A DNA stretch of 39,150 bases from Halodesulfovibrio sp. GTDB lineage: Bacteria > Desulfobacterota > Desulfovibrionia > Desulfovibrionales > Desulfovibrionaceae. The notes under the pieces were generated by a model. It ran no database searches. It saw nothing but the letters and a program-made list of their open reading frames with translations, and had not been told where the DNA came from. A program made the position numbers and the translations under genes. This document shows positions 18,684-36,457 of the stretch, one piece after another (within the stretch, counting starts at the first letter, position 1; each line of letters opens with the position of its first letter). The stretch covers positions 1-39,150 of the forward strand of contig NZ_JADMLB010000029.1 in assembly GCF_015482765.1 (NCBI RefSeq). Direction: 5' to 3'.

Positions 18684-19736
18684 TTAATAAACAGAATTAA
18701 GTACGACAGAAAGCTCCTTAAAATACACATAGATCAAACTTCCTGTTTCAAGCTGAAGAGTGTCTACTGTGTTTCTTGAAATCAGAGCACAAATGCCGCT
18801 TCCGTCTTCAAGATGTCCTGTAATTTCAGCCATCACATCACTAACACTAATACGTTCTACACTACAGGCGAATCCATTGCGTTGCTTTTTGCTGGGAACC
18901 GAACCGTGCTCTGTAATGCCAACATACGGAGCCTTAATAGTGGCAACAACAGGAGTTCCTATAGACAATCGTAGGGTACGCACACTTTCCTCAGTAATAA
19001 TGGAAAATACAGAAAGGCCCGACTCAGTAGCGACCTCCACTTCAGCCATTATTCCGTCTGTCGACACATGAGCAACGTGCCCGACAAACGAATTACGCGC
19101 ACTGGTTCGCTGCTGCATCTCAGTGTGTGCTTTGCGCACAATGGAATTCACATCATCATGGGTATATTTACGAAAACTGGCCAGCACATCAGAAGAAAGG
19201 TGCCCGAGAACATTACTCACCATCATCAACGGCACACCGCCACGTAACATTTCAAGAGCACGGCTGTATCTAAGAACTCTAGGCGTTGCCAGCTCTTTGG
19301 GCAACCCGCAGTCCATTGCCCGTGCATAAAAAACTCTGCGTACATACCCTGGGTCCATATGAAAAAACGTTCCGCGCAGACTGCACCCCATTGAGCTTTC
19401 CAGAAGTTCCTGAAGTTCTGAACTCACAACGGTTTCTAAAGGAACCTCACGCTCTGTATCTCCCTGTCCGAGACAAACTGTCTTATTGGTGAAATCAAAT
19501 GCGGTTCGATCGTCCAAAGCCAGTGCCTCGCCAAGACGCGCGCCCGTAAAGCGCAGCAACAGAAACAACGCACGCATCCGCTGCCGCGAACGAATATATT
19601 CCTGCCTGTTTGTGGCGGAACACCATGCATCAAAAGATTGAAGAAAGACCTTCAGCTGCTGCGGCTCAAGGTACCGCAAAGAATCAGGAACAGTAAAAAG
19701 AGAATGCGGGGGCAACAGACCGGCACGTTCTGGCAT
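18684..19736 (-). CDS. tunR: TunR-type regulator: tyrosine-recombinase fold fused to two TOBE domains
   Basis: This cytoplasmic transcription regulator has 350 residues. Residues 15-205 resemble the catalytic domain of phage integrases: R67 in TGARLGE, R156 in VLRYS, H179 in LGHLS and Y191 in RKYTH. The usual His of the HxxR motif is Arg153. Residues 215-277 and 287-347 are two TOBE/molbindin domains that bind molybdate or tungstate. This architecture matches TunR, described in Desulfovibrio as a tungstate-responsive regulator of molybdate-uptake genes (family knowledge, from memory). It is divergent from modABC with 149 bases between the starts, and that gap holds two inverted repeats that could be operators. 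The ATG follows GTGGAG. Real recombinase activity is unlikely. Confidence 0.88.
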   Translation of the reverse strand: MPERAGLLPPHSLFTVPDSLRYLEPQQLKVFLQSFDAWCSATNRQEYIRSRQRMRALFLLLRFTGARLGEALALDDRTAFDFTNKTVCLGQGDTEREVPLETVVSSELQELLESSMGCSLRGTFFHMDPGYVRRVFYARAMDCGLPKELATPRVLRYSRALEMLRGGVPLMMVSNVLGHLSSDVLASFRKYTHDDVNSIVRKAHTEMQQRTSARNSFVGHVAHVSTDGIMAEVEVATESGLSVFSIITEESVRTLRLSIGTPVVATIKAPYVGITEHGSVPSKKQRNGFACSVERISVSDVMAEITGHLEDGSGICALISRNTVDTLQLETGSLIYVYFKELSVVLNSVY

Positions 19737-23281: not shown

Positions 23282-24304
23282 ATGCAGGCAGTTCCAGTTC
23301 AAAATTCAATTGGTATGGTTCTTTGTCACGACATCACCCGAATCGTTCCCGGTGAAAGTAAAGGCCCTGCGTTTAAAAAAGGCCACATCGTAACAGCAGA
23401 AGACATTCCAACCCTTCTTGATATCGGTAAAGAGCATCTTTATGTGCTCGATCTTACCGAAAATCAAATTCACGAAAACGAAGCGGCTATGCGTATTGCA
23501 AAAGCAGTTTCCGGTGAAGGCATCACTCTAACCGATGTTTCCGAAGGGCGAGTAAACCTTATTGCAAGCAAAGGGCTACTGTCCATTGATGTTGAGAAGG
23601 TTAACGAAATCAACGCCATTGATGAAGTTGTACTTTCAACCATGCACAACGGTCTGAATGTTCTTTCAGAACGACCGGTTGCAGGTACACGCATTGTTCC
23701 TCTTGTTACCGATAGATCAAAGGTTGAAGAAGTAGAAGCGGTCTGTGCAACAGGCGGTCCTGTTATTCAGGTAAAACCATTTAAACACCATAAAGTAGGT
23801 GTAGTTACCACTGGTAGCGAAGTCTACAATGGTAGAATTACAGATAAGTTCGGGCCTGTAATCCGTAAAAAATTTCACGAACTCGGGTCAAACGTTGTGG
23901 AACAGGTTTTTGTTCCCGACGACCAGCAGATGACAACAGATGCCATCAACAAGTTCCTCGATGATGGCCTTGATTTTGTTGTTGTCACCGGCGGTATGTC
24001 TGTCGATCCAGATGACAGAACCCCCGCCAGTATCCGCGACACCGGAGCAGACGTAGTCAGCTACGGCTCCCCAACCTTCCCCGGTGCCATGTTTATGCTT
24101 GCCTACAAGGATGGACGACCAATCGTCGGCCTTCCGGGCTGCGTCATGTACTACCGCGCCAGTATCTTTGATCTCATTGTACCACGCATTCTCGCAGGCG
24201 AAACAATTACCCGTAGAGATATTACGAACTTGGGACACGGCGGCTTCTGTGCCGGCTGCGACACATGTCATTTCCCACTGTGTTCCTTTGGTAAATCGTC
24301 ATAA
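23282..24304 (+). CDS. MoeA/MogA-like molybdopterin-binding protein with C-terminal cysteine motif
   Basis: This 340-residue cytoplasmic protein has the molybdenum-cofactor-binding (MoCF) fold at residues about 175-310. The fold shows VGVVTTGSEVYNGRI, VVTGGMSVDPDDRTPAS and GRPIVGLPGCVMY. The N-terminal half is a MoeA-like beta-rich region. MoeA inserts molybdenum into adenylated molybdopterin; this shorter relative is commonly encoded beside molybdenum hydroxylases and probably hands over or modifies the cofactor for Mop. The last 20 residues carry four cysteines (FCAGCDTCHFPLC, spacing 2-2-4), which could bind zinc or an Fe-S cluster. It lies between modE and mop, 131 bases before mop. Confidence 0.9.
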   Translation: MQAVPVQNSIGMVLCHDITRIVPGESKGPAFKKGHIVTAEDIPTLLDIGKEHLYVLDLTENQIHENEAAMRIAKAVSGEGITLTDVSEGRVNLIASKGLLSIDVEKVNEINAIDEVVLSTMHNGLNVLSERPVAGTRIVPLVTDRSKVEEVEAVCATGGPVIQVKPFKHHKVGVVTTGSEVYNGRITDKFGPVIRKKFHELGSNVVEQVFVPDDQQMTTDAINKFLDDGLDFVVVTGGMSVDPDDRTPASIRDTGADVVSYGSPTFPGAMFMLAYKDGRPIVGLPGCVMYYRASIFDLIVPRILAGETITRRDITNLGHGGFCAGCDTCHFPLCSFGKSS

Positions 24305-24435: not shown

Positions 24436-27153
24436 ATGCTTAAAAAAATGCTCCATGTAAACGGCGTAGACCGTATGGTCATATGCGAAGAGGACGATTC
24501 ACTCGCTAACGTCCTGCGCGAAAAGATCGGTCTTACAAGCGTTAAAATCGGTTGTGGTACCGGTCAGTGCGGTAGCTGTACTGTTGTAGTAGACGGTAAG
24601 CTCAAACGCACCTGTACCATGAAGATGAAACGTGTTGCAGAACACACCGAAATCGTAACAGCTGAAGGCGTAGGTACTCCTGAGAACCTGCACCCTATCC
24701 AGCTCGCATGGATTGCTCACGGCGGCGCACAGTGCGGTTTCTGTACCCCTGGCTTCATCGTATCTTCATACGCATTGCTCCTTGAAAATCAGTCCCCGAC
24801 TCGTGAAGACGTTCGAGACTGGTTCCAGAAGCATCGTAACGCATGTCGTTGCACAGGTTACAAACCTCTCGTAGACGCTGTAATGGACGCTGCTGCTGTA
24901 CTGCGCGGTGACAAAACACGTGACGAACTTATGAAAGACGTACCTCAGGAAGGTCGCATTTTGGGTACTAAATACCCACGTCCTACCGCAGTTGCAAAAG
25001 TAACCGGTACTCTTGATTACGGTGCAGACCTTGGCATCAAACTCCCTGGTGATGCTCTCCGCCTTGCATTAGTTCAGGCTGAAGTATCCCACGCTAAAAT
25101 TATTTCCATTGACACTTCCGAAGCTGAAAAAATGGAAGGCGTCAAAAAAATCATTACCCACAAAGACGTTAAAGGTAAAAACCGCATCACCGGTCTTATT
25201 ACCTTCCCGTCCAACAAGGGTGATGGCTGGGATCGTCCTATTTTGTGTGACGAGAAAGTATTCCAGTACGGCGATACTATCGCTATTGTTTGTGCTGATA
25301 CTGAAAAGCATGCAAAAGCAGCTGCTGCAAAAGTAAAAGTTGAACTTGAACAGCTCCCTGAATACATGAGCGCTCCTGAAGCAATGCAGGATGACGCCAT
25401 GGAAATTCATCCTGGCACACCAAACATTTACTACATTCAGAACATCGCTAAAGGTGAAGAAACTGCGCCTATCTTTAAAGACGCAGACGTTACTATCGAA
25501 GGCGATTACTATGTTGGCCGTCAGCCACACATGCCTATCGAGCCAGACGTAGGTTTTGCATACCGCAACGATGAAGGCAAACTCGTTATCCATTCCAAAT
25601 CTATCGGTATGCACCTGCATGCTGCTATGATCGCTCCTGGTCTCGGTGAAGAGCTTGATAACATTGTTATGGTTCAGAACCCATCCGGCGGTACTTTTGG
25701 CTACAAATTCAGCGCAACCATGGAAGCACTTGTCGGTGTAGCTTGTATTGCAACTGGTAAACCTGTGTTCCTTAACTACACATGGCACCAGCAGCAGACA
25801 TACACTCCAAAGCGTTCTCCATTCTTCATGAACGTACGTATGGCTGCAGACAAAGAAGGTAAACTCCTCGGTATGGAAACTGACTGGTCTGTAGACCACG
25901 GTCCATACTCTGAGTTCGGTGACCTTCTTACCCTCCGTGGTGCACAGTTCATCGGTGCTGGTTACGATATTCCAAACATCCGTGGTGAAGGCCGCACTGT
26001 TTGTACTAACCATGCATGGGGTTCTGCTTTCCGTGGTTTCGGTTCTCCTCAGTCTGAGTTTGCATCCGAAGTTCTCATGGATGAACTTGCTGAAAAAATC
26101 GGCATGGATCCTTTGGATATTCGTTACAAAAACGCTTACCGCAAAGGTTCTACCACCCCTACAGGCCAAGACCCTGAAGTGTACAGCATTCCGGACCTCA
26201 TCGACACAATTCGTCCAAAATACGAAGAAGCTAAAAAACGCGCAGCAGAACTCTCTACTGATGAAGTTAAACGCGGCGTAGGTATTGCTCTTGGTGTTTA
26301 CGGTTCCGGTCTCGACGGCCCAGACACTGCTGAAGCAGCGCTTGAGCTTGATGAAGAAGGTATCATCACTGTGTACACCACTTGGCACGACCATGGTCAG
26401 GGTGCAGACATCGGTGCATTAACCACCGCTCACGAAGCTCTCAGCCCAATGGGCATCCCGCCAGAGCAGATCCGTGTTTGCTTGAACGACACCAGCGTCT
26501 GCCCTAACGGCGGCCCTGCAGGTGGTTCCCGTTCTCAGGTTGTAATCGGCCGCGCAATTAAAGCAGCTGGTGAAGAACTTGTTGCAACAATGAAAAAAGA
26601 AGACGGCTCTTTCTACACCTATCAGGAAATGGTAGAGAAAAAGCTTCCTACCCGTGCAAACGGCAAATGGACTGCTCCTTGTACAGATTGTGACGAAAAC
26701 GGTCAGGGTAACCCATTCGCATGTTACATGTACGGTATGTTCCTTGCTGAAGTCAGCGTAGAAGTTGCTACCGGTAAAACTGCAGTTGAAAAAATCACCG
26801 CTGCAGTCGACGTTGGTACAATCATGAACAAACTTGCTGTTGACGGTCAGATGTACGGCGGTCTTGCACAGGCTATCGGCCTTGCTCTTACAGAAGACTA
26901 CGAAGACATTAAAAAGCACTCCACCATGGTGGGTGCAGGTCTTCCTTACATCAAGCAGATTCCGGACGACATGGAACTCATTTACATTGAATCCGAACGT
27001 CCAGAAGGTCCATTCGGCGCATCCGGTGTTGGCGAACTTCCACTCACCAGCCCTCATGCAGCGATCATTAACGCGATCTACAATGCTTGTGGCGCCCGTA
27101 TCCGTCATCTGCCAGCACGCCCTGAAAAAGTGCTCGCAGCTCTCAAAAAGTAA
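24436..27153 (+). CDS. mop: Molybdenum aldehyde oxidoreductase (xanthine oxidase family)
   Basis: This enzyme oxidises aldehydes to carboxylic acids with water as oxygen source, using a molybdopterin cytosine dinucleotide site and two [2Fe-2S] clusters. The cysteines C40, C45, C48 and C60 (plant-ferredoxin type) and C100, C103, C137 and C139 (helical type) fall exactly at the numbers known for the Desulfovibrio gigas enzyme. The active-site glutamate is E867 in ASGVGELPL, 38 residues from the end as in D. gigas E869. It has 905 residues in a single chain and no FAD domain. The ATG follows GAGAGGAG after five bases. Codon choice is strongly biased (CGT, GGT, CTC frequent), suggesting high expression. 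A 12-bp hairpin separates it from the maturation genes. Confidence 0.96.
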   Translation: MLKKMLHVNGVDRMVICEEDDSLANVLREKIGLTSVKIGCGTGQCGSCTVVVDGKLKRTCTMKMKRVAEHTEIVTAEGVGTPENLHPIQLAWIAHGGAQCGFCTPGFIVSSYALLLENQSPTREDVRDWFQKHRNACRCTGYKPLVDAVMDAAAVLRGDKTRDELMKDVPQEGRILGTKYPRPTAVAKVTGTLDYGADLGIKLPGDALRLALVQAEVSHAKIISIDTSEAEKMEGVKKIITHKDVKGKNRITGLITFPSNKGDGWDRPILCDEKVFQYGDTIAIVCADTEKHAKAAAAKVKVELEQLPEYMSAPEAMQDDAMEIHPGTPNIYYIQNIAKGEETAPIFKDADVTIEGDYYVGRQPHMPIEPDVGFAYRNDEGKLVIHSKSIGMHLHAAMIAPGLGEELDNIVMVQNPSGGTFGYKFSATMEALVGVACIATGKPVFLNYTWHQQQTYTPKRSPFFMNVRMAADKEGKLLGMETDWSVDHGPYSEFGDLLTLRGAQFIGAGYDIPNIRGEGRTVCTNHAWGSAFRGFGSPQSEFASEVLMDELAEKIGMDPLDIRYKNAYRKGSTTPTGQDPEVYSIPDLIDTIRPKYEEAKKRAAELSTDEVKRGVGIALGVYGSGLDGPDTAEAALELDEEGIITVYTTWHDHGQGADIGALTTAHEALSPMGIPPEQIRVCLNDTSVCPNGGPAGGSRSQVVIGRAIKAAGEELVATMKKEDGSFYTYQEMVEKKLPTRANGKWTAPCTDCDENGQGNPFACYMYGMFLAEVSVEVATGKTAVEKITAAVDVGTIMNKLAVDGQMYGGLAQAIGLALTEDYEDIKKHSTMVGAGLPYIKQIPDDMELIYIESERPEGPFGASGVGELPLTSPHAAIINAIYNACGARIRHLPARPEKVLAALKK

Positions 27154-27168
27154 TATAGTATACAAAAC

Positions 27169-27196
27169 CGTCCGTGCTGCTCCGGCAGCACGGACG
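27169..27196 (+). other. 12-bp hairpin with UNCG-type tetraloop after mop
   Basis: CGTCCGTGCTGC (27169-27180) pairs perfectly with GCAGCACGGACG (27185-27196) around TCCG. In RNA the closing C-G pair and UCCG loop match the very stable UNCG class. No T-run follows, so it is not a standard terminator. It lies 15 bases after the mop stop and 16 bases before the next start codon, and probably shields the mop mRNA 3' end or reduces downstream expression. Confidence 0.7.
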
Positions 27197-27212: not shown

Positions 27213-29495
27213 ATGGAACAACACGAACTTCGCCAATGGGAAGCACAGTGTACGCAGGAAGAACTGCCTCACTGTCAAACCCGTTGCCCACTGCATATTG
27301 ACGTACGTAACTTTTGTAAAAAACTTGCTGCAGGTAAAATAAACGAAGCCTGGGCTATTCTTTACAAAAGTATGCCTATTCCTCACATTGCTGCCAACCT
27401 GTGTGAAGGTGACTGCATGGATTCATGCCTGCGCCATGAACTTGGCGGCAGCATTAATATGCCAGAGCTGGAGCGTTGTTGTGCAGCTAATGCAACCAAA
27501 ACCCCGCCTCTTCGTCCATTACCATCTAAGGGTAAAAAAGTTCTTATCATCGGCGGTGGCCTCACAGCGTTAGCAGCAGCATGGGATCTTGCGAAAAAAG
27601 GTATTACACCTACAATACTCTCTGAAAATCCATACGAAGACCTTGCTTCTGTTCTACCGGAAGATTCTTTTGCACAACACCAGGCTGCATTCGAAAAACT
27701 CGGCGTACTCTTTTCATCAGAAGACCTCCCGTCAAACCTCAATGAGGCATCTGACGCATGGGATGCTGTTCTTCTGGCAACGCAGGAAGCTGCAGCATTA
27801 TACGATTGCGCGCTCACTGATCCTGCAATTCTCCAAACAGAAATTTCTTCTGTATTCTCTGTTCCATCCCCTTGTATTGCTACCAAGATAGAACGTATTG
27901 CACAGGGCAAAACGTTAGCATTATCAGCGGAACGAAGCATGCAGAATGTGTCCCTCACCGCAGGAAGAGAACATGAAGGTTCCTACCAATCGCGACTGCA
28001 CACTGCGGTCTCGTCTATCTCTTCATTGCCCCTCCTTCCCGCTGGTGAAACGGGATATGATGAAGCGACCGCTATGCTGGAAGCTGGAAGGTGCCTACAG
28101 TGCGAATGTATGCAGTGCGTAGATAACTGTGTGTATCTGGCAGAATTCAAGAGCTACCCGAAAGTCTACGCGCGGCAGGTATACAACAATGCCGCGATAG
28201 TCATGGGCACACGATATGCCAACAAAATGATCAACTCCTGCATGTTGTGTGGCTTGTGCGAAGAAATTTGTCCTGAAGACTTTGCTGTACAGAATCTCTG
28301 TCTCACAGCACGACAAGATATGGTGGCAGCTTCCACAATGCCGCCGTCAGCACATGAATTTGCGCTCCGCGATATGGCGTTTGCCAATACCGCGGGCATG
28401 CTTGCAATGAATGCACCTTCCGCTTCCGCTAGCACGTACGCGTTCTTTCCGGGATGCCAACTTCCGGCAATTTCCCCGCACCTTGTTGAGAGTACTTATT
28501 CGTACTTACGAGATTCTCTGGAAGAACCTGTAGGTCTATTCATCCACTGTTGCGGTGCTCCGGCACATTGGGCAGGACAAAAAGAACTGACTCAAGCAAC
28601 AACAGATCAAATTCAGAAGCAATGGGAAAACATGGGAAAACCGCAGCTCATTACAGGCTGCCCGACCTGTGCAACTATGCTTGCTGAATTGCTGCCGCAT
28701 ATCCCTACACGCTCGCTATGGGCAGTACTTGAAGAAATCGGCTTACCGCCAACTGCACGTTTGCCGAAACAACCATATGTTCTGCATGACCCATGTTCTA
28801 CACGTCATGATGAACCTATGCGGGATCATGTACGTTCCATCGCATCAACACTCGACATTTCTATTTCAGAACCGCACCATACCGGAGTATTAACTGAATG
28901 CTGCGGCTACGGCGGCTTACTGGATACAGCCAATCCGGAATTGTCACGAAAGGCTTCTGAGCACAGAGCAGAGGTTCTCTCGTCCTGTACGGAAGAAGAA
29001 CAGGACATACTCACCTACTGCGCAATGTGCCGTGACATGCTGGCAAGGACTGGGAAACGAACTATCCACTTGCTGGATATCCTCTTCCCGAACTGTAACG
29101 CAGCACTTGCGTGCTGTAATGCCGATCCGGCAACGATACCAGTCACAGGCTTTTCTGATCGACGCGAAAACCGTATCCGCTTGAAGGAACATCTGCTGAC
29201 AACTCTCTGGGGAGAAAAGGAACACGTTGCAGACACCGATGCTCCAACAATTACCTACACCGAGCAGGCATCTGCAAATATGGAAGAACGTCGTATTCTG
29301 CGCAGTGACATCCGTAAAGTTGTGACGCACGTTGAAGAAACCGGCGAAAGCCTGTTCAACACAGAAACTGAACGACATGTTGCCAGCTTCCGCCCAGTAA
29401 CCGTGACATACTGGATGGAGTACACAAAAGACGAAAACGGATACTGCATTCATAATGTATGGTCACACAGAATGCAGATACTTCCTCCCAAATAA
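27213..29495 (+). CDS. Flavin/Fe-S/CCG-domain oxidoreductase of DVU_1558 type
   Basis: This large electron-transfer protein has 760 residues. Residues 10-90 form a GltD-like N-terminal Fe-S domain (C13, C21, C25, then C64, C68, C72). A dinucleotide-binding start VLIIGGGLTALAAAWDLA lies at 110-127, but the region up to 280 is short. It lacks the second nucleotide-binding motif found in GltD-type reductases. A two-cluster ferredoxin domain follows: C294, C297, C299, C302, C306 and C343, C346, C349, C353. From about 395 on come two CCG half-domains as in heterodisulfide reductase B (FFPGCQL, HCCGAP, GCPTC, ECCGYGG). The ATG at 27213 has a poor ribosome site. It follows mop and opens the maturation gene run. 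It may reduce Mop's partner or a sulfur-containing maturation substrate. Confidence 0.87.
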   Translation: MEQHELRQWEAQCTQEELPHCQTRCPLHIDVRNFCKKLAAGKINEAWAILYKSMPIPHIAANLCEGDCMDSCLRHELGGSINMPELERCCAANATKTPPLRPLPSKGKKVLIIGGGLTALAAAWDLAKKGITPTILSENPYEDLASVLPEDSFAQHQAAFEKLGVLFSSEDLPSNLNEASDAWDAVLLATQEAAALYDCALTDPAILQTEISSVFSVPSPCIATKIERIAQGKTLALSAERSMQNVSLTAGREHEGSYQSRLHTAVSSISSLPLLPAGETGYDEATAMLEAGRCLQCECMQCVDNCVYLAEFKSYPKVYARQVYNNAAIVMGTRYANKMINSCMLCGLCEEICPEDFAVQNLCLTARQDMVAASTMPPSAHEFALRDMAFANTAGMLAMNAPSASASTYAFFPGCQLPAISPHLVESTYSYLRDSLEEPVGLFIHCCGAPAHWAGQKELTQATTDQIQKQWENMGKPQLITGCPTCATMLAELLPHIPTRSLWAVLEEIGLPPTARLPKQPYVLHDPCSTRHDEPMRDHVRSIASTLDISISEPHHTGVLTECCGYGGLLDTANPELSRKASEHRAEVLSSCTEEEQDILTYCAMCRDMLARTGKRTIHLLDILFPNCNAALACCNADPATIPVTGFSDRRENRIRLKEHLLTTLWGEKEHVADTDAPTITYTEQASANMEERRILRSDIRKVVTHVEETGESLFNTETERHVASFRPVTVTYWMEYTKDENGYCIHNVWSHRMQILPPK

Positions 29496-29504
29496 GAGCG
29501 CACC

Positions 29505-29720
29505 ATGAACACGCTACAAGTCTTACACGACGATTTTTCACATTGGAAATGCACCAAGTGTAACGAGCAACTGGTCTTTGCTCCCGTGGAACTGGTGTAC
29601 CTCGAAAGTAAATTTTCTGTAGAACTCCCAACATGTCCGTCCTGCGGATATGTACTTATTCCTGAATCCCTTGCCTTAGAAAAAATGGCAGAAGTGGAAC
29701 GACTACTGGAAGACAAATGA
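29505..29720 (+). CDS. Small two-CxxC redox or zinc-ribbon protein of DVU_1557 type
   Basis: This 71-residue protein carries C16-x-x-C19 (WKCTKC) and C44-x-x-C47 (TCPSCG), spaced like a rubredoxin or zinc ribbon. No signal peptide is present. Nine bases separate it from the preceding oxidoreductase gene, and its stop overlaps the methyltransferase start by four bases (ATGA). The family is known to me only as a redox protein found next to aldehyde oxidoreductase genes in Desulfovibrio. It may pass electrons between the large Fe-S protein and the radical SAM enzyme, or bind zinc; the sequence cannot decide. Confidence 0.82.
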   Translation: MNTLQVLHDDFSHWKCTKCNEQLVFAPVELVYLESKFSVELPTCPSCGYVLIPESLALEKMAEVERLLEDK

Positions 29721-30436
29721 GTACTCCGCTTTGGCAGCATCCTCTTATGGCTTCACTTGAGGATGGCGCTCTCCGCCCCGGCGGGCTGCAGCTTACCCGC
29801 ACGGCATATGACAAGCTGAATATTTCTTCTGCCACCCGCATCCTTGATGCCGGATGCGGCAATGGGACCACGGCTCAATTCCTTCAGCAGCACTATAGTG
29901 CGCACGTCACAACAATAGATCTTTCCGAACAGAACACCAAACAGGCTCACCAAAAAGCCCTGTGTACCGTTCAAGCCAGCGTAGATCACCTGCCGTTCTG
30001 TGATAATGCATTTAATATTGTAAACTGTGACTGCGTACTCTCCCTATGTAGTTCTGTAGAGACTGCCGTTGCAGAATTCTCCCGCGTTCTCAGCACTGGT
30101 GGAATGCTTATTCTCTCAGACCTTTATAGAAGGGCTCAGACACCATCGTGCTCTCACGCCCCAAAAGCCGCTCCAATCGAACATACTGCCTCTTGTTCGA
30201 ATACAAGTGGTTGCAGCAGCAATCCGCTATCTTTACCCAAACTCTTTAAAATACTCACCAACGCTGGATTTACGCACACATCCAGCACAGACTGCACAAA
30301 AGAACTCAAGGAATTAACTGCAAAACTTATTTTCTCAGGAATCACTCCCTGCTGTTCAAAAAACAGTCAGGACTGCTCTACTTCATACGATAAAACAATC
30401 GGATACATCCAGATTAACGCCGAAAAGAAGGGGTAG
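29717..30436 (+). CDS. trsM: Class I SAM-dependent methyltransferase of DVU_1556 type, cysteine-rich
   Basis: This 239-residue methyltransferase has the SAM-binding motif I ILDAGCGNGTT near residue 42, then TTIDLSEQN (acidic ribose contact) and FSRVLSTGGMLILSDLY. The C-terminal third is unusual, with clusters of cysteines: SCSHAP, SCSNTSGCSS, TDCTKE, TPCCSKNSQDCS. Cysteines next to a methyltransferase fold recall enzymes that methylate arsenic or other soft elements, but no such function is shown. It overlaps the preceding gene by four bases and lies three bases before the C-GCAxxG-C-C gene. The name trsM is from memory of protein-family naming and is not certain. Confidence 0.83.
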   Translation: MSTPLWQHPLMASLEDGALRPGGLQLTRTAYDKLNISSATRILDAGCGNGTTAQFLQQHYSAHVTTIDLSEQNTKQAHQKALCTVQASVDHLPFCDNAFNIVNCDCVLSLCSSVETAVAEFSRVLSTGGMLILSDLYRRAQTPSCSHAPKAAPIEHTASCSNTSGCSSNPLSLPKLFKILTNAGFTHTSSTDCTKELKELTAKLIFSGITPCCSKNSQDCSTSYDKTIGYIQINAEKKG

Positions 30437-30439
30437 CAC

Positions 30440-30898
30440 ATGCTTTCAGATATTCAACTGCAATTGCTTCAATGGGCTGGCAAAGGCTACTGTTGCAGCC
30501 AAATTCTTGTAGGAATGGCGCTGGAATACTCAGGGCTTGAAAATCCGCAATTAATCAGGGCAGCAGAAGGTCTCTGCAACGGCATGTCCAGCTGCAAAGG
30601 AACATGCGGACTGATGACCGGCGGAGCACTGCTTCTGGGAATGTACGCAGGACACGATGCCGAAACAGAGGAAAAAGATGAACACCTGCCGATGCTTCTT
30701 GAATCTTTTTCTGAATGGTTCACTCAAAAAACAAAAGAGCAATACGGGGGCATTACCTGCGGAGAAATCCTTGGTGAAACAAGCGGTGCACCAGTACCGG
30801 ACACATCTAAATGCGGTGCTCTGCTTGCCGAAACATTTACCTACATTGAATCACTGCTTGCCGAATACGAATACGACATCTCCGCAGTAAAAGAGTAG
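30440..30898 (+). CDS. C-GCAxxG-C-C family protein of DVU_1555 type
   Basis: This is a 152-residue protein of the C-GCAxxG-C-C family, probable redox-active or metal-binding proteins. A Cys pair lies at residues 18-19 (GYCCSQ). The central motif LCNGMSSCKGTCGLMTGG with three cysteines follows, and then ITCGEILG and KCGALL. Members of the broader family often occur as selenoproteins, but every expected position here is cysteine and no in-frame UGA is seen. The ATG at 30440 follows GAAGGGG, and the gene ends two bases before the radical SAM gene. It may carry a sulfur, selenium or metal intermediate in Mop maturation; this is inference. Confidence 0.85.
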   Translation: MLSDIQLQLLQWAGKGYCCSQILVGMALEYSGLENPQLIRAAEGLCNGMSSCKGTCGLMTGGALLLGMYAGHDAETEEKDEHLPMLLESFSEWFTQKTKEQYGGITCGEILGETSGAPVPDTSKCGALLAETFTYIESLLAEYEYDISAVKE

Positions 30899-30900
30899 CT

Positions 30901-32259
30901 ATGTCTGACCATATTTCCCATACAGAGAGTGTTTGTCCTCAATGTCTTCAGCGCATCCCTGCCATGCGCGTTACAAAGGGAGACGAAACACGGCTGGTGA
31001 AGCACTGTCCTCAACATGGTGCGTTCTCGACACCAGTCTGGCGTTCAACACACCCTTCAACAACTTTTACAGACTGGCTGCGCCCTAAAATTCCATCGAC
31101 ACCGCCAACCATCTCAACGTCTGTGGATAAAGGGTGTCCATTCGATTGCGGACTTTGCGAGGAGCACCGCCAACACAGCTGTATGGCTTTAATTGAAGTT
31201 ACATGGCGCTGTAACCTTTCGTGCCCAGTATGTTTTGCATCTGCCGACAACAAATATAAAGCCACTACCCCTGCCGATCCAAGCAAAGAAGAGCTTATTG
31301 CATTGCTGGAAACAACAATGCAAACTACAGGTGGCTGTAACCTGCAATTTTCAGGCGGTGAACCCACAATTCGGGATGACTTACCGGAACTGGTGGCAGC
31401 AGCAAAAGCCATCGGCTTTCCTTTCGTACAAATTAACACAAATGGAGTGCGTGCCGCTCACGATCCGGAATATGTAAAAAGACTGGCACAGGCCGGAGCG
31501 GATTCTGTTTTTCTTCAATTTGACGGTCTGCATGAATCCACATGGAAGGCATTCCGTAACGCTGACTTACGGGATATAAAAAACAAAGCCATTGCTGCAT
31601 TTGAAGAAGCAGGTATCGGCATTGTCCTTGTACCTGTAATCTCCCCTGTCATTAATAAAAATGAGATCGGAGATATCATACGCTTTGCGATTGATCACGC
31701 TCCAGCAGTCCGTGGCGTTCATTTCCAGCCAATAAGCTACTTCGGCCGCTACCCTGTAGCTCCGGCGGATAATGAACGTATCACCCTGCCGGAATTAGCT
31801 GAAGAATTGGAAAAACAAACAGATCATCTTGTTGCTACCGGAGACTTTGTGCCTCCAACATGCGAACACGCGTTATGCTCTTTCCATGCAAACTACATCA
31901 TTAATGACGACAAGACCCTGCAACTGTTATCCGTGCCTAAAAACTCCTGTAACTGTAAGCCGAAACCTGCCGCAGAAGGTGCAGAAAAAGCTCGCTCCTT
32001 CGTACGCAGCCAGTGGGCAGCAGCGGAATTAGATGCGAAGCCAAAAGATTTATCCAACGAGCTTGATTCGTTTATACAGCAGGCATCAACACGGCGATTC
32101 GCAATTTCAGCAATGGCATTTCAAGATGCATGGTCTCTCGATATAGAGCGCCTTAAAGGATGCTGTATTCACGTTGTAGCACCGGATGGAAGGCTTGTAC
32201 CGTTCTGCGCCTACAACCTGACAGCGGCAAACGGGACAACGCTTTACCGCGGAAAATAA
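30901..32259 (+). CDS. trsS: Radical SAM protein of TrsS type
   Basis: This 452-residue enzyme is of the MJ0619-like radical SAM group. The [4Fe-4S] motif is C104-x3-C108-x2-C111 in WRCNLSCPVCF. The N-terminus has a zinc-ribbon-like part (C12, C15, C36) and an auxiliary Cys set C79, C83, C86 and C94. The C-terminus has CCIHVVAPDGRLVPFCAYNL, typical of the group. The glycine-rich SAM-contact motif is FSGGEPT. Family members are known in a selenocysteine form; here the N-terminal CPQC and C-terminal CC are all cysteine. It lies two bases after the C-GCAxxG-C-C gene and 70 bases before the CoA-ligase-like gene. The substrate is unknown; modification of Mop, its cofactor, or a small precursor are options. 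The symbol is recalled from family naming. Confidence 0.87.
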   Translation: MSDHISHTESVCPQCLQRIPAMRVTKGDETRLVKHCPQHGAFSTPVWRSTHPSTTFTDWLRPKIPSTPPTISTSVDKGCPFDCGLCEEHRQHSCMALIEVTWRCNLSCPVCFASADNKYKATTPADPSKEELIALLETTMQTTGGCNLQFSGGEPTIRDDLPELVAAAKAIGFPFVQINTNGVRAAHDPEYVKRLAQAGADSVFLQFDGLHESTWKAFRNADLRDIKNKAIAAFEEAGIGIVLVPVISPVINKNEIGDIIRFAIDHAPAVRGVHFQPISYFGRYPVAPADNERITLPELAEELEKQTDHLVATGDFVPPTCEHALCSFHANYIINDDKTLQLLSVPKNSCNCKPKPAAEGAEKARSFVRSQWAAAELDAKPKDLSNELDSFIQQASTRRFAISAMAFQDAWSLDIERLKGCCIHVVAPDGRLVPFCAYNLTAANGTTLYRGK

Positions 32260-32329
32260 AAAAACATCACTACGGATAAGATAGTACGTTTACTAAACGA
32301 CTCAAAAAGAACACCCGGCAACAAATTTT

Positions 32330-33679
32330 ATGATGCAAAAAACATGTGTAAAAAATGCAGAGCAGCAAATAGCATGGCGTAACCCACTCGATATCCAAGC
32401 TACGCTTGATATGAAGCATGAAAATGCTGAAATTCCCGTTACCCGCGATACTCTTGAAGCATGGCAACTTGCCAGACTCCAACAGGTCTGCACCTATGCA
32501 CAAAAAAACAGCATCTTTTATGCTGAAAAACTGCGAGAGCTTTCGGACGTATCCTTTGCATCCGGTGAAGCTTTTTCGCACCTTCCAAGAACAACTGCCG
32601 ACGATATTCGTGAAGCTCCGCTGAATTTCCTTTGTACATCACAGGATGATATCGCACGCGTTGTAACACTGACGACATCAGGCTCTACAGGGAAACCAAA
32701 GCGTCTTTTTTTTACACAAGATGAACTGGATGAAACAAAAGCTTTTTATGATCATGGAATGCGCTGCCTCGCTCACTCCGGCGACACGGTATTAGCGCTG
32801 TTACCCGCCCCTAAGCCGGACAGCGTTGGAGCACTTCTTGTTGATGGACTGACTGCATTGGGAGCTTCTCCGGTTCTGCATCAAAATCCTGACGATGTCG
32901 CCACCTCTCTTGCTCTATTCAAACAGCATGCTCCGGACTGCGTTGTGGGAACTGCCGCACACGTTCTTGCACTGACAAAACTCTGGCAAAAAAACAGTAA
33001 CAGAGTTTCTCCTGTAAAAAGTGTCTTACTCTGCTGGGACGCAAGCTCACCTGCCGTCAGAAAGTACATCGAATCAACATGGAACTGCCGAGTCTACACC
33101 CACTGGGGAATGACAGAAACCAGCCTTGGCGGGGCTGTCAGTTGTCCGTTTGGCAGAGGCATGCATCTGCGTGAAACAAATATTTATGTAGAAATTACCG
33201 ATCCGGACACGGGGCTTCTTGTCCCCGATGGGGAACGTGGAGAAATCGTCGTAACGACACTGACTCGAACAGGGATGCCACTAATACGATACCGTACAGG
33301 CGATGAATCTCATATCATTACCGAACAATGCCCATGCGGTTCCCCATTGCGCCGACTGAGTCCTGAAATCCACAGAATCTCGCTTCCTATAAATGCACCG
33401 GATTGGTTCAAACAAATTACACCGAACGCCATAGATGAGCTATTGCTCTCTGTGCCGAGTTTTCTAGCCCAGCAAGCACAATTAAGGGTGGCACCGAACA
33501 TACTGGAAGTAACTGTTGACATGAGCACAAACTCACCTCAACAATTATCAAGTATTAACGAGCTGTTATGTGATCTTGTTTCTCCATTGCAAACGGCTCC
33601 GGATATATTGTGCTTGCCGGGCAAGAATAACGGCAACATTTCCATTGGATTCGCAAAACGCAAAATCAGCGTCAAGTAA
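32330..33679 (+). CDS. AMP-dependent CoA-ligase-like protein of DVU_1553 type
   Basis: This 449-residue adenylate-forming enzyme is most like phenylacetate-CoA ligase. The ATP-binding signature is TTSGSTGKPKRLFF near residue 118. Later come THWGMTETSLGG and GERGEIVVTTLTRTGMPLIRYRTGDES, the adenylation-domain core motifs. A Cys pair in EQCPCGSPLRRL resembles the metal-like site in PaaK proteins. It would activate a carboxylate as acyl-AMP or acyl-CoA, but the acid is unknown. Its place among Mop maturation genes suggests a dedicated substrate rather than general metabolism; alternatively it could use the acid that Mop produces. The start ATG-ATG at 32330 has a weak ribosome site, and a 70-base gap precedes it, the largest within the run. 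Confidence 0.85.
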   Translation: MMQKTCVKNAEQQIAWRNPLDIQATLDMKHENAEIPVTRDTLEAWQLARLQQVCTYAQKNSIFYAEKLRELSDVSFASGEAFSHLPRTTADDIREAPLNFLCTSQDDIARVVTLTTSGSTGKPKRLFFTQDELDETKAFYDHGMRCLAHSGDTVLALLPAPKPDSVGALLVDGLTALGASPVLHQNPDDVATSLALFKQHAPDCVVGTAAHVLALTKLWQKNSNRVSPVKSVLLCWDASSPAVRKYIESTWNCRVYTHWGMTETSLGGAVSCPFGRGMHLRETNIYVEITDPDTGLLVPDGERGEIVVTTLTRTGMPLIRYRTGDESHIITEQCPCGSPLRRLSPEIHRISLPINAPDWFKQITPNAIDELLLSVPSFLAQQAQLRVAPNILEVTVDMSTNSPQQLSSINELLCDLVSPLQTAPDILCLPGKNNGNISIGFAKRKISVK

Positions 33680-33689
33680 CGAGGGTACA

Positions 33690-34709
33690 ATGCATTCAAT
33701 TCTTACAGATATTACACGAAATCTCGCAGCACATAACTGCGTTCTTGCCACTGTGATTTCCAGCACAGGCTCTACACCACGCTCTTCAGGAGCGCATATG
33801 CTTATCTGTCCGAAAGGCGAATTCTATGGGACTGTTGGTGGGGGATTAATTGAAGCTAAAGTACAAGAGACTGCAGCAACTTTTCTTACTGGAGAACACG
33901 GCGCAGCTGCACTGCATTCGTATGAACTTGATAACACCAAAGCCGGTGCGTTGGGCATGTCCTGCGGTGGGTCTCTCACAGTTCTTCTTGAACGCCTTAC
34001 ACCAGAACATCATGAAGAGTTTGTTCAGCTAGAAGAAGCTGTACTAAAAGGAAACACTATTAGCCGTGAAGCCTTTTATCTTCAGCAAGATGCCATCTGG
34101 AAGCGGGTTACAGCCCATGAACTTGCGAACGAGCAATACGCCAAAACTGTAGAAGAAATCCACACTGAAAAAAAACTCACAGACAACAGCTCACCTCTAC
34201 TGATTAACAAAGAACCAGTGAAATATTTTGCCGAAACATACCACCCTTCTGCCACGGTTATCATTGCCGGTGCAGGGCATGTAGCAAAACCGACAGCAGA
34301 GGTAGCTCATCTTGTCGGATTCTCAGTTGTTGTTCTGGATGACCGTGATGATTTTGCCAACAAAGAACGTTTCCCTAATGCGCATGTTCAGGTTGTAGAC
34401 TCCTTAGACGATATTTTATCTGACATCACGATCCATAAAGACTGCTATGTTGTCATCGTCACCAGAGGCCACGAGCATGATAAGACTGTCTTGCAACAAA
34501 TGCTTACAACACCGGCAAAATATATCGGTATGATTGGAAGTAAAAGTAAACGAGACGGCCTGTATCAACGCCTACGGGAAGAAGGCGTAACAGACGAAGC
34601 TATTGCACGCTGTCACTGCCCGATCGGCCTTCCGCTTGGCGGCAGAGCTCCGGAAGAAATTGCGGTAAGTATTATGGCAGAAATCATTCAGACCAAAGCA
34701 CAAGGCTAA
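33690..34709 (+). CDS. XdhC-family aldehyde oxidoreductase maturation factor
   Basis: This 339-residue cytoplasmic chaperone belongs to the XdhC/CoxI family, which binds the molybdenum cofactor, promotes its sulfuration and inserts it into xanthine-oxidase-type enzymes. The N-terminal domain has LATVISSTGSTPRSSGAHM and GTVGGGLIEAKV. The C-terminal Rossmann domain has VIIAGAGHVAKPTAEVAHLV, VTRGHEHDKTVL, and KYIGMIGSKSKRDG with HCPIGLPLGGRAPEEIAVSI. The ATG at 33690 follows GAGGG with five bases of spacing; the frame stays open further upstream, but that part overlaps the ligase gene. It lies four bases before the NTP-transferase gene. Its target is almost certainly Mop. Confidence 0.93.
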   Translation: MHSILTDITRNLAAHNCVLATVISSTGSTPRSSGAHMLICPKGEFYGTVGGGLIEAKVQETAATFLTGEHGAAALHSYELDNTKAGALGMSCGGSLTVLLERLTPEHHEEFVQLEEAVLKGNTISREAFYLQQDAIWKRVTAHELANEQYAKTVEEIHTEKKLTDNSSPLLINKEPVKYFAETYHPSATVIIAGAGHVAKPTAEVAHLVGFSVVVLDDRDDFANKERFPNAHVQVVDSLDDILSDITIHKDCYVVIVTRGHEHDKTVLQQMLTTPAKYIGMIGSKSKRDGLYQRLREEGVTDEAIARCHCPIGLPLGGRAPEEIAVSIMAEIIQTKAQG

Positions 34710-34713
34710 ACGC

Positions 34714-35874
34714 ATGCATACCGCATACGCAATATTACTTGCAGCGGGGTATGGCTCACGCATGGGGCAATGCAAGCCGACACTCCCTTTGGGAACCTCC
34801 AGTGCTCTGGAGTTGCTTTCCCAAAGCTTTACACGGGCAGGCGTTACACCGATTGTCGTTACAGGACACGCTCAGGAAAATGTCGAAGCCGAGTGTCGTC
34901 GCCTGTCACTTGTTTCTGTCCATAATCCAGCCTTTGACGACGGTATGTTTTCTTCCGTGCAAGCAGGCTGTAAAGCTCTGCCGGATGATACAGAATACTT
35001 CTTCATAACTCCTGTAGATATTCCGCTTATCAGGCATCAAACAATTTCTGCTCTGCTCACAAACGCAGGGCAGAAATCTGCAACGGTTCTCCATCCTGTG
35101 CTTGATGACAGCCCGTTAACCCCACTGCCAAAGTTCATGTATGAAACAGAGGCGAAACGGGGGCATCCACCATGTATGCACGCGTCACTCAAGCAAGAAA
35201 TTCTTGCATACAGCGGAGAAGGAGGACTGGCAGGACTCTTAGCTCATCATGCGAAGACAACCAGCTATATTCCCGTTACAGATAGCGGGATGTTGCAGGA
35301 TATGGACACACCAGATGATTATCAAAAACTATGTGAACTGGAAAAATTACAGCAACTACCATCAACACAAGAGTGTTACGCTCTTTGGAATGCTGAAAAC
35401 CTTCCTTCGCACATTCGTAAGCACTCCATAGCTGTAACCGACGTAGCCAGAGCCATTTTACCCCACCTTCCGGATACAACACCTCTTTTTGAACAAACTG
35501 TTCTTTCCGGAACCATGTTGCATGATATTGCTAAAGGCTCACCAAAACACGCAAGTAAAGGCGCTGAAATAGTCAGCGAATATGGATTTCCCGAACTTGC
35601 GTCGTGCATCGCAGCCCACTCACACCTGCAAGTATCGTCTGGAGCAGTCACACCGGAAGAGCTGGTCTTTTTAGCAGATAAATTTATCGAAGGAACAACT
35701 GTCTGTTCACTTGAACGCAGATATGAAGAAAAAATGGCGTGCTATGCTTCCTCAGCTGAAGTTGTGGAGGCCATAAAGCAAAAGTTATCTCAGGCACAGG
35801 CTATCCAACATAAGGTTGAAGCTGCTATAAACACCACTCTTGATACGCTTCTCAACACAAACAGGAGACATTGA
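34714..35874 (+). CDS. MocA-like molybdopterin nucleotidyltransferase fused to an HD domain (DVU_1551 type)
   Basis: This 386-residue two-domain protein begins with a nucleotidyltransferase (residues 1-200) carrying AILLAAGYGSRMGQCKPTLPLG, the signature of MocA-type CTP:molybdopterin cytidylyltransferases, and FITPVDIPLI for metal binding. Residues about 228-370 form an HD phosphohydrolase domain with HSIAVTDVA, MLHDIAKG and AAHSHLQ. The first domain fits making molybdopterin cytosine dinucleotide, the cofactor form known in Desulfovibrio Mop. The HD part could cleave a phosphate ester or nucleotide in the same pathway; its substrate is unknown. It starts four bases after xdhC and ends one base before the phosphatase gene. 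Confidence 0.9.
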   Translation: MHTAYAILLAAGYGSRMGQCKPTLPLGTSSALELLSQSFTRAGVTPIVVTGHAQENVEAECRRLSLVSVHNPAFDDGMFSSVQAGCKALPDDTEYFFITPVDIPLIRHQTISALLTNAGQKSATVLHPVLDDSPLTPLPKFMYETEAKRGHPPCMHASLKQEILAYSGEGGLAGLLAHHAKTTSYIPVTDSGMLQDMDTPDDYQKLCELEKLQQLPSTQECYALWNAENLPSHIRKHSIAVTDVARAILPHLPDTTPLFEQTVLSGTMLHDIAKGSPKHASKGAEIVSEYGFPELASCIAAHSHLQVSSGAVTPEELVFLADKFIEGTTVCSLERRYEEKMACYASSAEVVEAIKQKLSQAQAIQHKVEAAINTTLDTLLNTNRRH

Positions 35875-35875
35875 T

Positions 35876-36457
35876 ATGCTCTATCTTGTTCGCCATGGTG
35901 AAACGATTCTGCCCAAAGGAATATGTATAGGGCAAACTGATATTCCGATGGCACAAAAAGGTATAGAAAACATTACACAAAAGACTCTTCCACACCTCCT
36001 TGCATTACATGTGGAGTCGCCTTCAATTGTTGCCAGCCCGCTCCAGCGAACAATGACCACAGCCCAAATCTTTGCCCAGGAATTCTCAGTTGAAATTGAA
36101 CAAGATCCAGCTTTGCAGGAAATCGATATGGGTAAATGGGACGGACTTGCCTTTACCTATATAAAAAAACATTGGGCAGCAGAATACGAAGAACGAGGAC
36201 AAAACTTCGCTCACTTCCAAGCACCGGAAGGAGAGTCTTTTTCAGACGTCCAACAGCGTGCTCTGGAAGCAATTCTCCCATTATGCCAGCGCCCTGAGCC
36301 AGTCGTTATCGTTACACACGCCGGCGTAATCCGTAGTTTACTCTGCGCAGCCAATCAAACACCACTTCAAGAGCTTTTCACATACACTCCCAAAACAGGC
36401 TCTATAACACTGCTCAGTAAAGAAACATTCCGCTGTAAGTCATTATACCTTCAGTGA
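35876..36457 (+). CDS. Histidine phosphatase family protein (phosphoglycerate-mutase/CobC-like)
   Basis: This 193-residue phosphatase has the RHG motif at residues 6-8 (YLVRHGET), the second catalytic segment ASPLQRTMTTAQIF, DMGKWDGL, and the second active-site histidine in IVTHAGVIRSLL. CobC-type members remove a phosphate in cobalamin synthesis, but no cobalamin gene is present here. Its position at the end of the Mop maturation run suggests a phosphate-removal step in that pathway. The ATG at 35876 has AGGAG nine bases upstream; a longer frame upstream overlaps the HD gene and is unlikely. No clear terminator follows in the 60 bases before the convergent patatin gene. Confidence 0.88.
   Translation: MLYLVRHGETILPKGICIGQTDIPMAQKGIENITQKTLPHLLALHVESPSIVASPLQRTMTTAQIFAQEFSVEIEQDPALQEIDMGKWDGLAFTYIKKHWAAEYEERGQNFAHFQAPEGESFSDVQQRALEAILPLCQRPEPVVIVTHAGVIRSLLCAANQTPLQELFTYTPKTGSITLLSKETFRCKSLYLQ

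Follow-up and report, generated by a model that had tools for sequence, protein, structure and literature searches.

The run of nine genes behind mop in Halodesulfovibrio sp. (positions 27213..36457 of contig NZ_JADMLB010000029.1, a 39,150-nucleotide stretch hereafter called the window) is best read as two modules in one cluster. One is the Trs core, with the genes for DICL (an Fe-S protein with an FAD fold), a DVU_1557-type small protein, a methyltransferase, the radical SAM protein TrsS, an AMP-dependent ligase and often a C-GCAxxG-C-C protein; the other consists of the genes for XdhC, a MocA-like nucleotidyltransferase-HD fusion (MocA-HD) and a histidine phosphatase, which accompany the single-chain molybdenum aldehyde oxidoreductase Mop. 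Our best explanation, to which we assign a probability of about 0.4, is that the Trs core is older, that Mop was recruited once, and that Mop replaced NAD(P)H as the electron donor of DICL. A role of the core merely in maturation of Mop is unlikely, because the core persists without Mop, the Mop-linked TrsS proteins form one clade, and the NAD(P)H domain is kept only in DICL proteins of loci without Mop.

Among 178 genomes of Desulfobacterota, TrsS scored over its cut-off in 17, and in a further genome (G039) its gene is broken by a frame change, giving 18 in total. The ligase (over its cut-off) and the C-terminal domain of DICL (DICL-Ct, at E 1e-5) were each found in 18 genomes, identical to those with TrsS, so that the domain was confined to TrsS genomes. 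Six of the ten rows in the DICL-Ct alignment derive from these same genomes, and the independent part of that result is therefore the other 12 matches and the 160 misses. Mop exceeded its cut-off in 11 of the 178 genomes and was cut by contig ends in another (G104); TrsS was present in all 12. Mop was lacking in six of the 18 TrsS genomes. Four of these (G131, G075, G108 and G039, 90-100% complete), all with the core, gave no match to MoCoBD_1; the other two, G125 and G152, gave 5 and 9 matches, among which no Mop exceeded the cut-off. Fifty of the 178 genomes matched the Mop model at E 1e-120 or better, at least 36 of them without TrsS over its cut-off, and beyond the 12 Mop genomes only G125 and G152 among the 50 had TrsS over the cut-off.

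Two further genome sets were surveyed. Employing a stretch of the D. gigas enzyme as the Mop query, we found matches in 94 of 149 Desulfovibrionaceae genomes, TrsS in 92 and both in 90. One match (G227) was 45% identical and was not counted as Mop; Mop was thus accompanied by TrsS in 90 of 93 genomes, and in the three exceptions (G204, G296 and G308) the contig stops within the module, with DICL complete or begun. Of the genomes with TrsS only, G287 has the end of a Mop cut at the contig start, and G178 has tandem TrsS genes and no Mop match. Within Halodesulfovibrio, seven genomes carried both Mop and TrsS and two (G198 and G304) carried neither. The Desulfovibrionaceae set shares five TrsS genomes with the 18 of the Desulfobacterota survey. 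Across 291 genomes from the class that includes Clostridium ragsdalei (G323), Mop and TrsS exceeded their cut-offs in the identical 11 genomes. The preliminary description of this DNA had suggested testing whether the seven genes other than those for XdhC and MocA co-occur with single-chain Mop enzymes and are absent without them. One half of this held, as Mop was never found without the module in the three sets; the other half did not, as the core also occurs without Mop. Nor did the seven genes behave alike: the genomes with TrsS, with DICL-Ct and with the ligase are the same, and the phosphatase was found in none of ten loci without Mop (Mop-less loci).

The loci were read in stretches from 17 TrsS genomes and in 80 named loci, the best 80 of 578 relatives and hence biased towards the window; gene counts were made by BLAST and are lower bounds (a DVU_1557-like frame before TrsS in L127 had been missed). 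Mop and TrsS occurred together at 56 loci, 50 of which extend far enough past TrsS. These 50 contained DICL (50), the ligase (48), the methyltransferase (46), the C-GCAxxG-C-C protein (42), the DVU_1557-type protein (38), MocA-HD (36), the phosphatase (34) and XdhC (28). The ten Mop-less loci contained DICL-Ct and TrsS (10 each), the methyltransferase and the ligase (9 each), a CCG protein and the DVU_1557-type protein (7 each) and the C-GCAxxG-C-C protein (2); Mop, XdhC, MocA-HD and the phosphatase were found in none of them. At L034 the ligase gene lies not at the locus but elsewhere in the genome (G075). The same genome has a second pair of DICL-Ct and DVU_1557 genes away from TrsS (L165 6067-6770), and its two DVU_1557 copies are 89% identical. 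Neighbours of the Mop-less loci included genes for RACo, corrinoid proteins, TRAP transporters and a BadF-type ATPase with a 2-hydroxyglutaryl-CoA dehydratase component. Such core loci without Mop also occur in Chloroflexota and Acidobacteriota. Altogether 33 loci had TrsS but no nearby Mop. In the 22 genomes searched, Mop exceeded its cut-off in 11, scored 1099.7 bits, just below the cut-off, in G339, was cut by a contig end in G334, and was represented by Mop-like pieces in G322; loci L033-L037 were covered by the Desulfobacterota survey, and L064, L065, L104, L114, L118 and L119 were left out of this check.

Several genes of the cluster are fused at some loci: TrsS with the ligase (L080), MocA-HD with TrsS (L097), the methyltransferase with the ligase (L129), the ligase with the phosphatase (L060), DICL with the DVU_1557-type protein (L082, L102 and L115), DICL-Ct with the DVU_1557-type protein (L108), and MocA-HD with the phosphatase (L076, L116, L123 and L132). 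Some of these fusions could be errors of draft genomes. Fusions, together with co-retention and co-loss across genera even where the genes lie far apart, make it very improbable that the two modules are merely neighbours held together by shared regulation, such as a response to molybdate or aldehydes, with no joint function, although genes for molybdate transport and for sigma-54 regulators are repeatedly found in the vicinity.

In an unrooted tree of 97 TrsS sequences, nine Mop-less sequences grouped together (SH-aLRT 99), and this group spans at least three phyla, Desulfobacterota, Chloroflexota and Acidobacteriota. Within it, the genome of L127 has Mop elsewhere, and that of L117 has related enzymes and no Mop over the cut-off. 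In a rooted tree, all 24 Mop-linked TrsS sequences fell into a single clade (100/97), which excluded Mop-less and tandem TrsS. The rooted tree had 43 rows, including six outgroup rows, with some sequences dropped, and L079 was labelled as Mop by its genome, not its locus; the Mop-less rows did not resolve as one demonstrated clade. Tandem TrsS genes outside the Mop clade stand with genes for a ligase and a DUF5714 protein at L134 (7158-9757) and L164 (2646-6601).

The gene next to mop encodes DICL. Mop-type DICL consists of a GltD/Nfn-like half for 4Fe-4S and FAD, a dicluster, two CCG sites and the C-terminal domain; Fer4_20, CCG and Fer4_17 were matched in the window protein. Its match to Pyr_redox_2 was partial (19.2 bits, below 26.1), and an NAD(P)H-binding domain was accordingly not recognised. 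Judged by length, this domain is missing in 69 of 71 DICL proteins, in which the FAD motif lies 170-219 residues before the dicluster; the distance is 363 in the proteins of L111 and L117, both Mop-less, which carry a complete Pyr_redox_2 domain. An alignment of nine proteins showed the Mop type cleanly without the NAD(P)H domain and with the first FAD motif retained. FAD binding by Mop-type DICL is only likely, since the first motif is kept and the later GD is lost. The two CCG sites (C415/C446-C447/C483-C486 and C528/C563-C564/C603-C606), invariant in 26 sequences, are both complete C...CC...CxxC sites of the HdrB type. Their spacings, 30/35 and 34/38, are near but not all inside the ranges that we take to be those of HdrB (31-39/35-36). 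DICL resembles HdrB/HdrC-type and GltD/Nfn-type carriers in its GltD/Nfn-like half, its dicluster and its two CCG sites, but differs from them in being one chain, in having an extra C-terminal domain and, for the Mop type, in lacking the NAD(P)H domain. At one Mop-less locus (L110), a NuoF-like protein adjoins the short CCG protein.

We propose that the Trs core would be an older, self-standing anaerobic pathway, in which TrsS would carry out radical chemistry on carbon, as suggested by its match to a tetraether synthase over nearly the whole length, and the methyltransferase and the ligase would tailor the substrate. DICL would relay electrons, by way of its two CCG sites, to a step at a thiol or disulfide, as the likeness of these sites to HdrB suggests, with the small Cys proteins as partners. 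The older form of the CCG protein could draw the electrons from NAD(P)H. Mop would then have been recruited once in evolution, with XdhC, MocA-HD and the phosphatase coming along to mature it, and DICL would have dropped the NAD(P)H domain, retained the FAD fold and become fused to its C-terminal partner. Aldehyde oxidation by Mop would provide the electrons, and DICL would be the physiological flavoprotein partner of Mop. Mop is most simply seen as the supplier of the electrons that NAD(P)H can provide in other branches because, in the Mop branch, the product of the gene adjacent to mop combines Fe-S sites and an FAD fold but has no site for NAD(P)H. Gene content, co-occurrence, the single clade of Mop-linked TrsS in the rooted tree and the missing NAD(P)H domain of Mop-type DICL are computed results, and FAD binding, the passage of electrons from Mop to DICL, the disulfide step and the sequence of steps are inferred from them. 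That Mop took over the job of NAD(P)H, that DICL is the missing flavin partner of the D. gigas aldehyde oxidoreductase, and that the pathway runs without Mop in other phyla is, taken together, a slightly more tentative proposal than the explanation above.

Several observations weigh against this explanation. The NAD(P)H domain was found in just two Mop-less DICL proteins; elsewhere in the Mop-less loci the CCG protein is short and devoid of FAD, and at three of the ten none was recognised. In the FAD fold of DICL the later (C-terminal) GD is missing. One of the 69 DICL proteins without the NAD(P)H domain, that of L097, starts at the edge of its contig, and no Mop in that genome exceeded the cut-off. 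In G269, about 28 kb of a single contig separate Mop from TrsS, and G337, with a TrsS of the Mop-less type, has Mop elsewhere in its genome. Branches to the outgroup are long, so the root of the TrsS tree may be wrong. The hairpin between mop and DICL may mean unequal amounts of the two proteins, which is less expected of a stoichiometric partner. Finally, D. gigas Mop could pass electrons to flavodoxin in vitro (PMC10223205, section 9).

The window Mop matched PDB 1dgj and 1sij at E 0 and is a close homologue of the aldehyde oxidoreductases of D. desulfuricans (1dgj) and D. gigas (1sij). G192 matched the crystallised D. gigas enzyme (1sij) at 100% across the 307 residues searched. Behind mop, the locus of this D. 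gigas genome (L133) has genes for DICL, the DVU_1557-type protein, the methyltransferase, the C-GCAxxG-C-C protein, TrsS, the ligase, XdhC and the phosphatase; a BluB/nitroreductase-like gene sits between mop and DICL (L133 4918-5571). In Clostridium ragsdalei, a second mop copy reads as two frames (L163 1161-3889), and the core set beside it is complete except for the ligase up to the contig end. According to the available part of a historical review (PMC10223205), the D. gigas enzyme contains molybdopterin cytosine dinucleotide and needs no sulfido ligand for activity; FAD is absent from Mop, and the flavin partner is termed putative (section 9). That part of the review does not treat the core genes.

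The maturation pathway proposed in the preliminary description can be weighed against these data. If the whole run matured Mop, it would make or load a modified ligand, sulfur or selenium for the molybdenum cofactor. This is consistent with the strict dependence of Mop on the module across the three genome sets, with the fusions of MocA-HD to TrsS and to the phosphatase and with a cysteine-desulfurase-like gene in the Sporomusa cluster, and the hairpin would suit low amounts of maturation enzymes. XdhC, which passes the model 'aldehyde oxidoreductase maturation factor', and the MocA-like MocA-HD are indeed of the maturation type, and to this extent the earlier proposal holds; it is unlikely for the Trs core, which does not need Mop. 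Four TrsS genomes lack any MoCoBD_1 protein, and at least 36 of the 178 genomes have xanthine-oxidase-type proteins and no TrsS over the cut-off. The presence of the core in D. gigas together with an ordinary cofactor argues against a stable special ligand on Mop, as had been suggested; a transient or subtle effect of the core on Mop is possible. On balance, maturation of Mop by the whole run is improbable.

Mop might instead be a step of the Trs pathway, oxidising an aldehyde made by the core to an acid that the AMP ligase activates, with other oxidoreductases taking its place in the Mop-less branches. Mop was not found without the core, a ligase of the carboxylate-activating type is present in 18 of 18 core genomes, and Mop-less loci adjoin genes for an Fdh-like molybdoenzyme (L037), a TfrA-like flavoprotein (L117) and MaoC-like proteins (L110 and G075). 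Such a role would leave the loss of the NAD(P)H domain in Mop-type DICL unexplained, and the aldehyde oxidoreductase of D. gigas accepts many simple aldehydes as substrates. We regard it as unlikely, though less so than maturation by the whole run.

TrsS was named by Haft and Tolstoy (2025), as cited and tabulated in the available part of PMC13188914. Its family profile matched PDB 7tol, the tetraether lipid synthase Tes (GDGT-MAS), an enzyme that joins lipid chains, nearly end to end (E 5.9e-125). The two share the radical SAM motif, the pattern of an N-terminal metal site, GCPxDCGLC and a C-terminal CCIH...PFC. The window TrsS scored 356.9 bits with the Tes model NF045702, below its cut-off of 450, and differs from Tes in having a ligase, a methyltransferase and redox proteins as neighbours. 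No relative was found in a scan of viral contigs with TrsS.

The NCBI name of TrsS carries '(seleno)', selenocysteine being a trait of some family members. The reading frame of the window TrsS is open throughout, with a Cys codon rather than a selenocysteine codon at position 321, and none of the listed TrsS matches over the cut-off has an inner stop, the TGA flagged in G499 being the stop codon of the gene itself. In a draft genome of Acidobacteria (L127 9914-11326), the gene for a TrsS of the Mop-less type contains TGA, in frame, at the position of C321 in the window protein. This TGA is a selenocysteine candidate and could be counted for selenium loading, but it sits in a TrsS of the Mop-less type; it fits the NCBI name and gives no connection of selenium with Mop. 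In Sporomusa (L066 8529-9960), genes for an EF2568-like aminotransferase and a 104-aa protein stand directly before TrsS, and XdhC is split. The aminotransferase resembles those encoded by genes of selenium-dependent molybdenum hydroxylases (EF2568 type), with 340.9 bits, below the cut-off of 377; no gene of this type was seen in the nine-gene run of the window. Selenium loading, which the NCBI name and the Sporomusa aminotransferase had brought up as a main theme, was rejected, as the window TrsS is the Cys form and the sole relative with TGA at the aligned Cys is L127.

The coordinates of the features are collected in Table 1. All nine genes lie on the + strand, and their junctions are gaps of 1-70 bp or a 4-bp overlap, confirming the co-directional run with short or overlapping junctions reported before.

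Table 1. Features of the mop cluster in the window
Feature	Position	Strand	Basis and remarks
MoCF-type molybdopterin-binding protein, 340 aa, upstream of mop	23282..24304	+	TIGR00177, 65.9 bits, below cut-off; accessory
Mop, single-chain molybdenum aldehyde oxidoreductase; proposed electron donor	24436..27153	+	NF045668, 1672.9 bits (cut-off 1100)
Perfect 12-bp hairpin between mop and DICL	27169..27196	.	Sequence
DICL; proposed redox hub and Mop partner	27213..29495	+	Start 59 bp past Mop stop; NF045663, 904.1 bits (530)
DVU_1557-type small protein	29505..29720	+	Gap 9; NF045645, 99.1 bits (60)
DVU_1556-type class I methyltransferase	29717..30436	+	Overlap 4; NF045667, 190.6 bits (155)
C-GCAxxG-C-C protein	30440..30898	+	Gap 3; NF045669, 169.5 bits (103); PF09719
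TrsS radical SAM protein, Cys form	30901..32259	+	Gap 2; NF045646, 653.9 bits (490)
DVU_1553-type AMP-dependent (PaaK-like) ligase	32330..33679	+	Gap 70; NF045666, 417.7 bits (300)
XdhC-type maturation factor, Mop-specific	33690..34709	+	Gap 10; NF045664, 396.4 bits (350)
MocA-like nucleotidyltransferase-HD fusion, Mop-specific	34714..35874	+	Gap 4; NF045665, 413.4 bits (315)
Histidine phosphatase, CobC-like, Mop-specific	35876..36457	+	Gap 1; PF00300, 147.7 bits

Curated NCBIfam cut-offs were passed by eight of the nine genes, and these families, tied to Mop as described above, are real. The exception was the phosphatase, for which the best model, CobC-type TIGR03162 (alpha-ribazole phosphatase), gave 152.5 bits (cut-off 162.9). 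Start codons were preferred at ATG 33690 for XdhC (GTG 33570 is likewise open) and at ATG 35876 for the phosphatase (TTG 35840 is likewise open). The nine-gene order recurs in many other genomes and is thus not a chance arrangement; the nearest named relative among the matches listed is Halodesulfovibrio spirochaetisodalis, with TrsS 84% identical in the best segment. The window is a member of the same group as the DVU_1551-1558 cluster of D. vulgaris (NCBIfam NF045645, NF045646 and NF045663-NF045669), with the same families in mostly the same order; the preliminary description had already pointed to it as related. Since the models are numbered consecutively, NCBI seems to have defined them together, for the cluster as a whole. 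The NCBIfam entries assign no function, none was found for the eight families named by NCBI, and no description of the reactions of the core was found in the open-licence literature. New here are the distinction between a Mop-independent core and Mop-specific genes and the loss of the NAD(P)H domain in DICL.

The DVU_1557-type protein has two CxxC pairs and a conserved C-terminal tail (E65 and K71). In the methyltransferase, C106 and C166 are conserved, at what we take to be ArsM positions; ArsM structures matched the family profile, but not as best matches, and arsenic methylation was rejected as a function, with 41.8 bits for the ArsM model NF008823 (cut-off 263). The ligase matched PDB 4r1l (E 2.4e-27) and gave 99.1 bits with the model of phenylacetate-CoA ligase PaaK, TIGR02155, below the cut-off of 646.3. 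MocA-HD gave 109.5 bits with the MocA cytidylyltransferase model TIGR03310, below the cut-off of 186.45. Over its own cut-off it was found in 14 of the 178 Desulfobacterota genomes, nine with Mop and five with neither Mop nor TrsS, and in none of the six Mop-less TrsS genomes; it is therefore not part of the core.

The preliminary description does not mention two features: the hairpin between mop and DICL and the 70-bp gap preceding the ligase gene. Stems of at least 8 bp, longer than in any of 50 simple shuffles, were found in 18 of 50 mop-DICL gaps elsewhere. The hairpin may perhaps separate the expression of Mop from that of the remaining genes. Relatives of the MoCF-type protein recur in 27 of 97 other loci, the window being the 28th. 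A sigma-54 activator follows the Mop cluster at L061 (15477-17351), with relatives in 11 loci including those of acetogens. On the - strand of the window (18684-19736), a tyrosine-recombinase-like domain is fused to molybdate-binding Mop domains; this protein resembles TunR, a tungstate regulator of sulfate reducers.

Although the aldehyde oxidoreductase of D. gigas has long been studied, its physiological flavin partner is still described as putative. Genome comparison points to one particular protein for this role, from the gene cluster of the enzyme itself, and to a purpose. It further delimits a radical-SAM pathway that occurs in sulfate reducers, acetogens, Chloroflexota and other groups, and it corrects the obvious assumption that all the genes behind mop are there to produce Mop. 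If the proposed recruitment is true, the classical Mop would be the electron pump of an undescribed pathway, which would make some compound also without Mop in other phyla.

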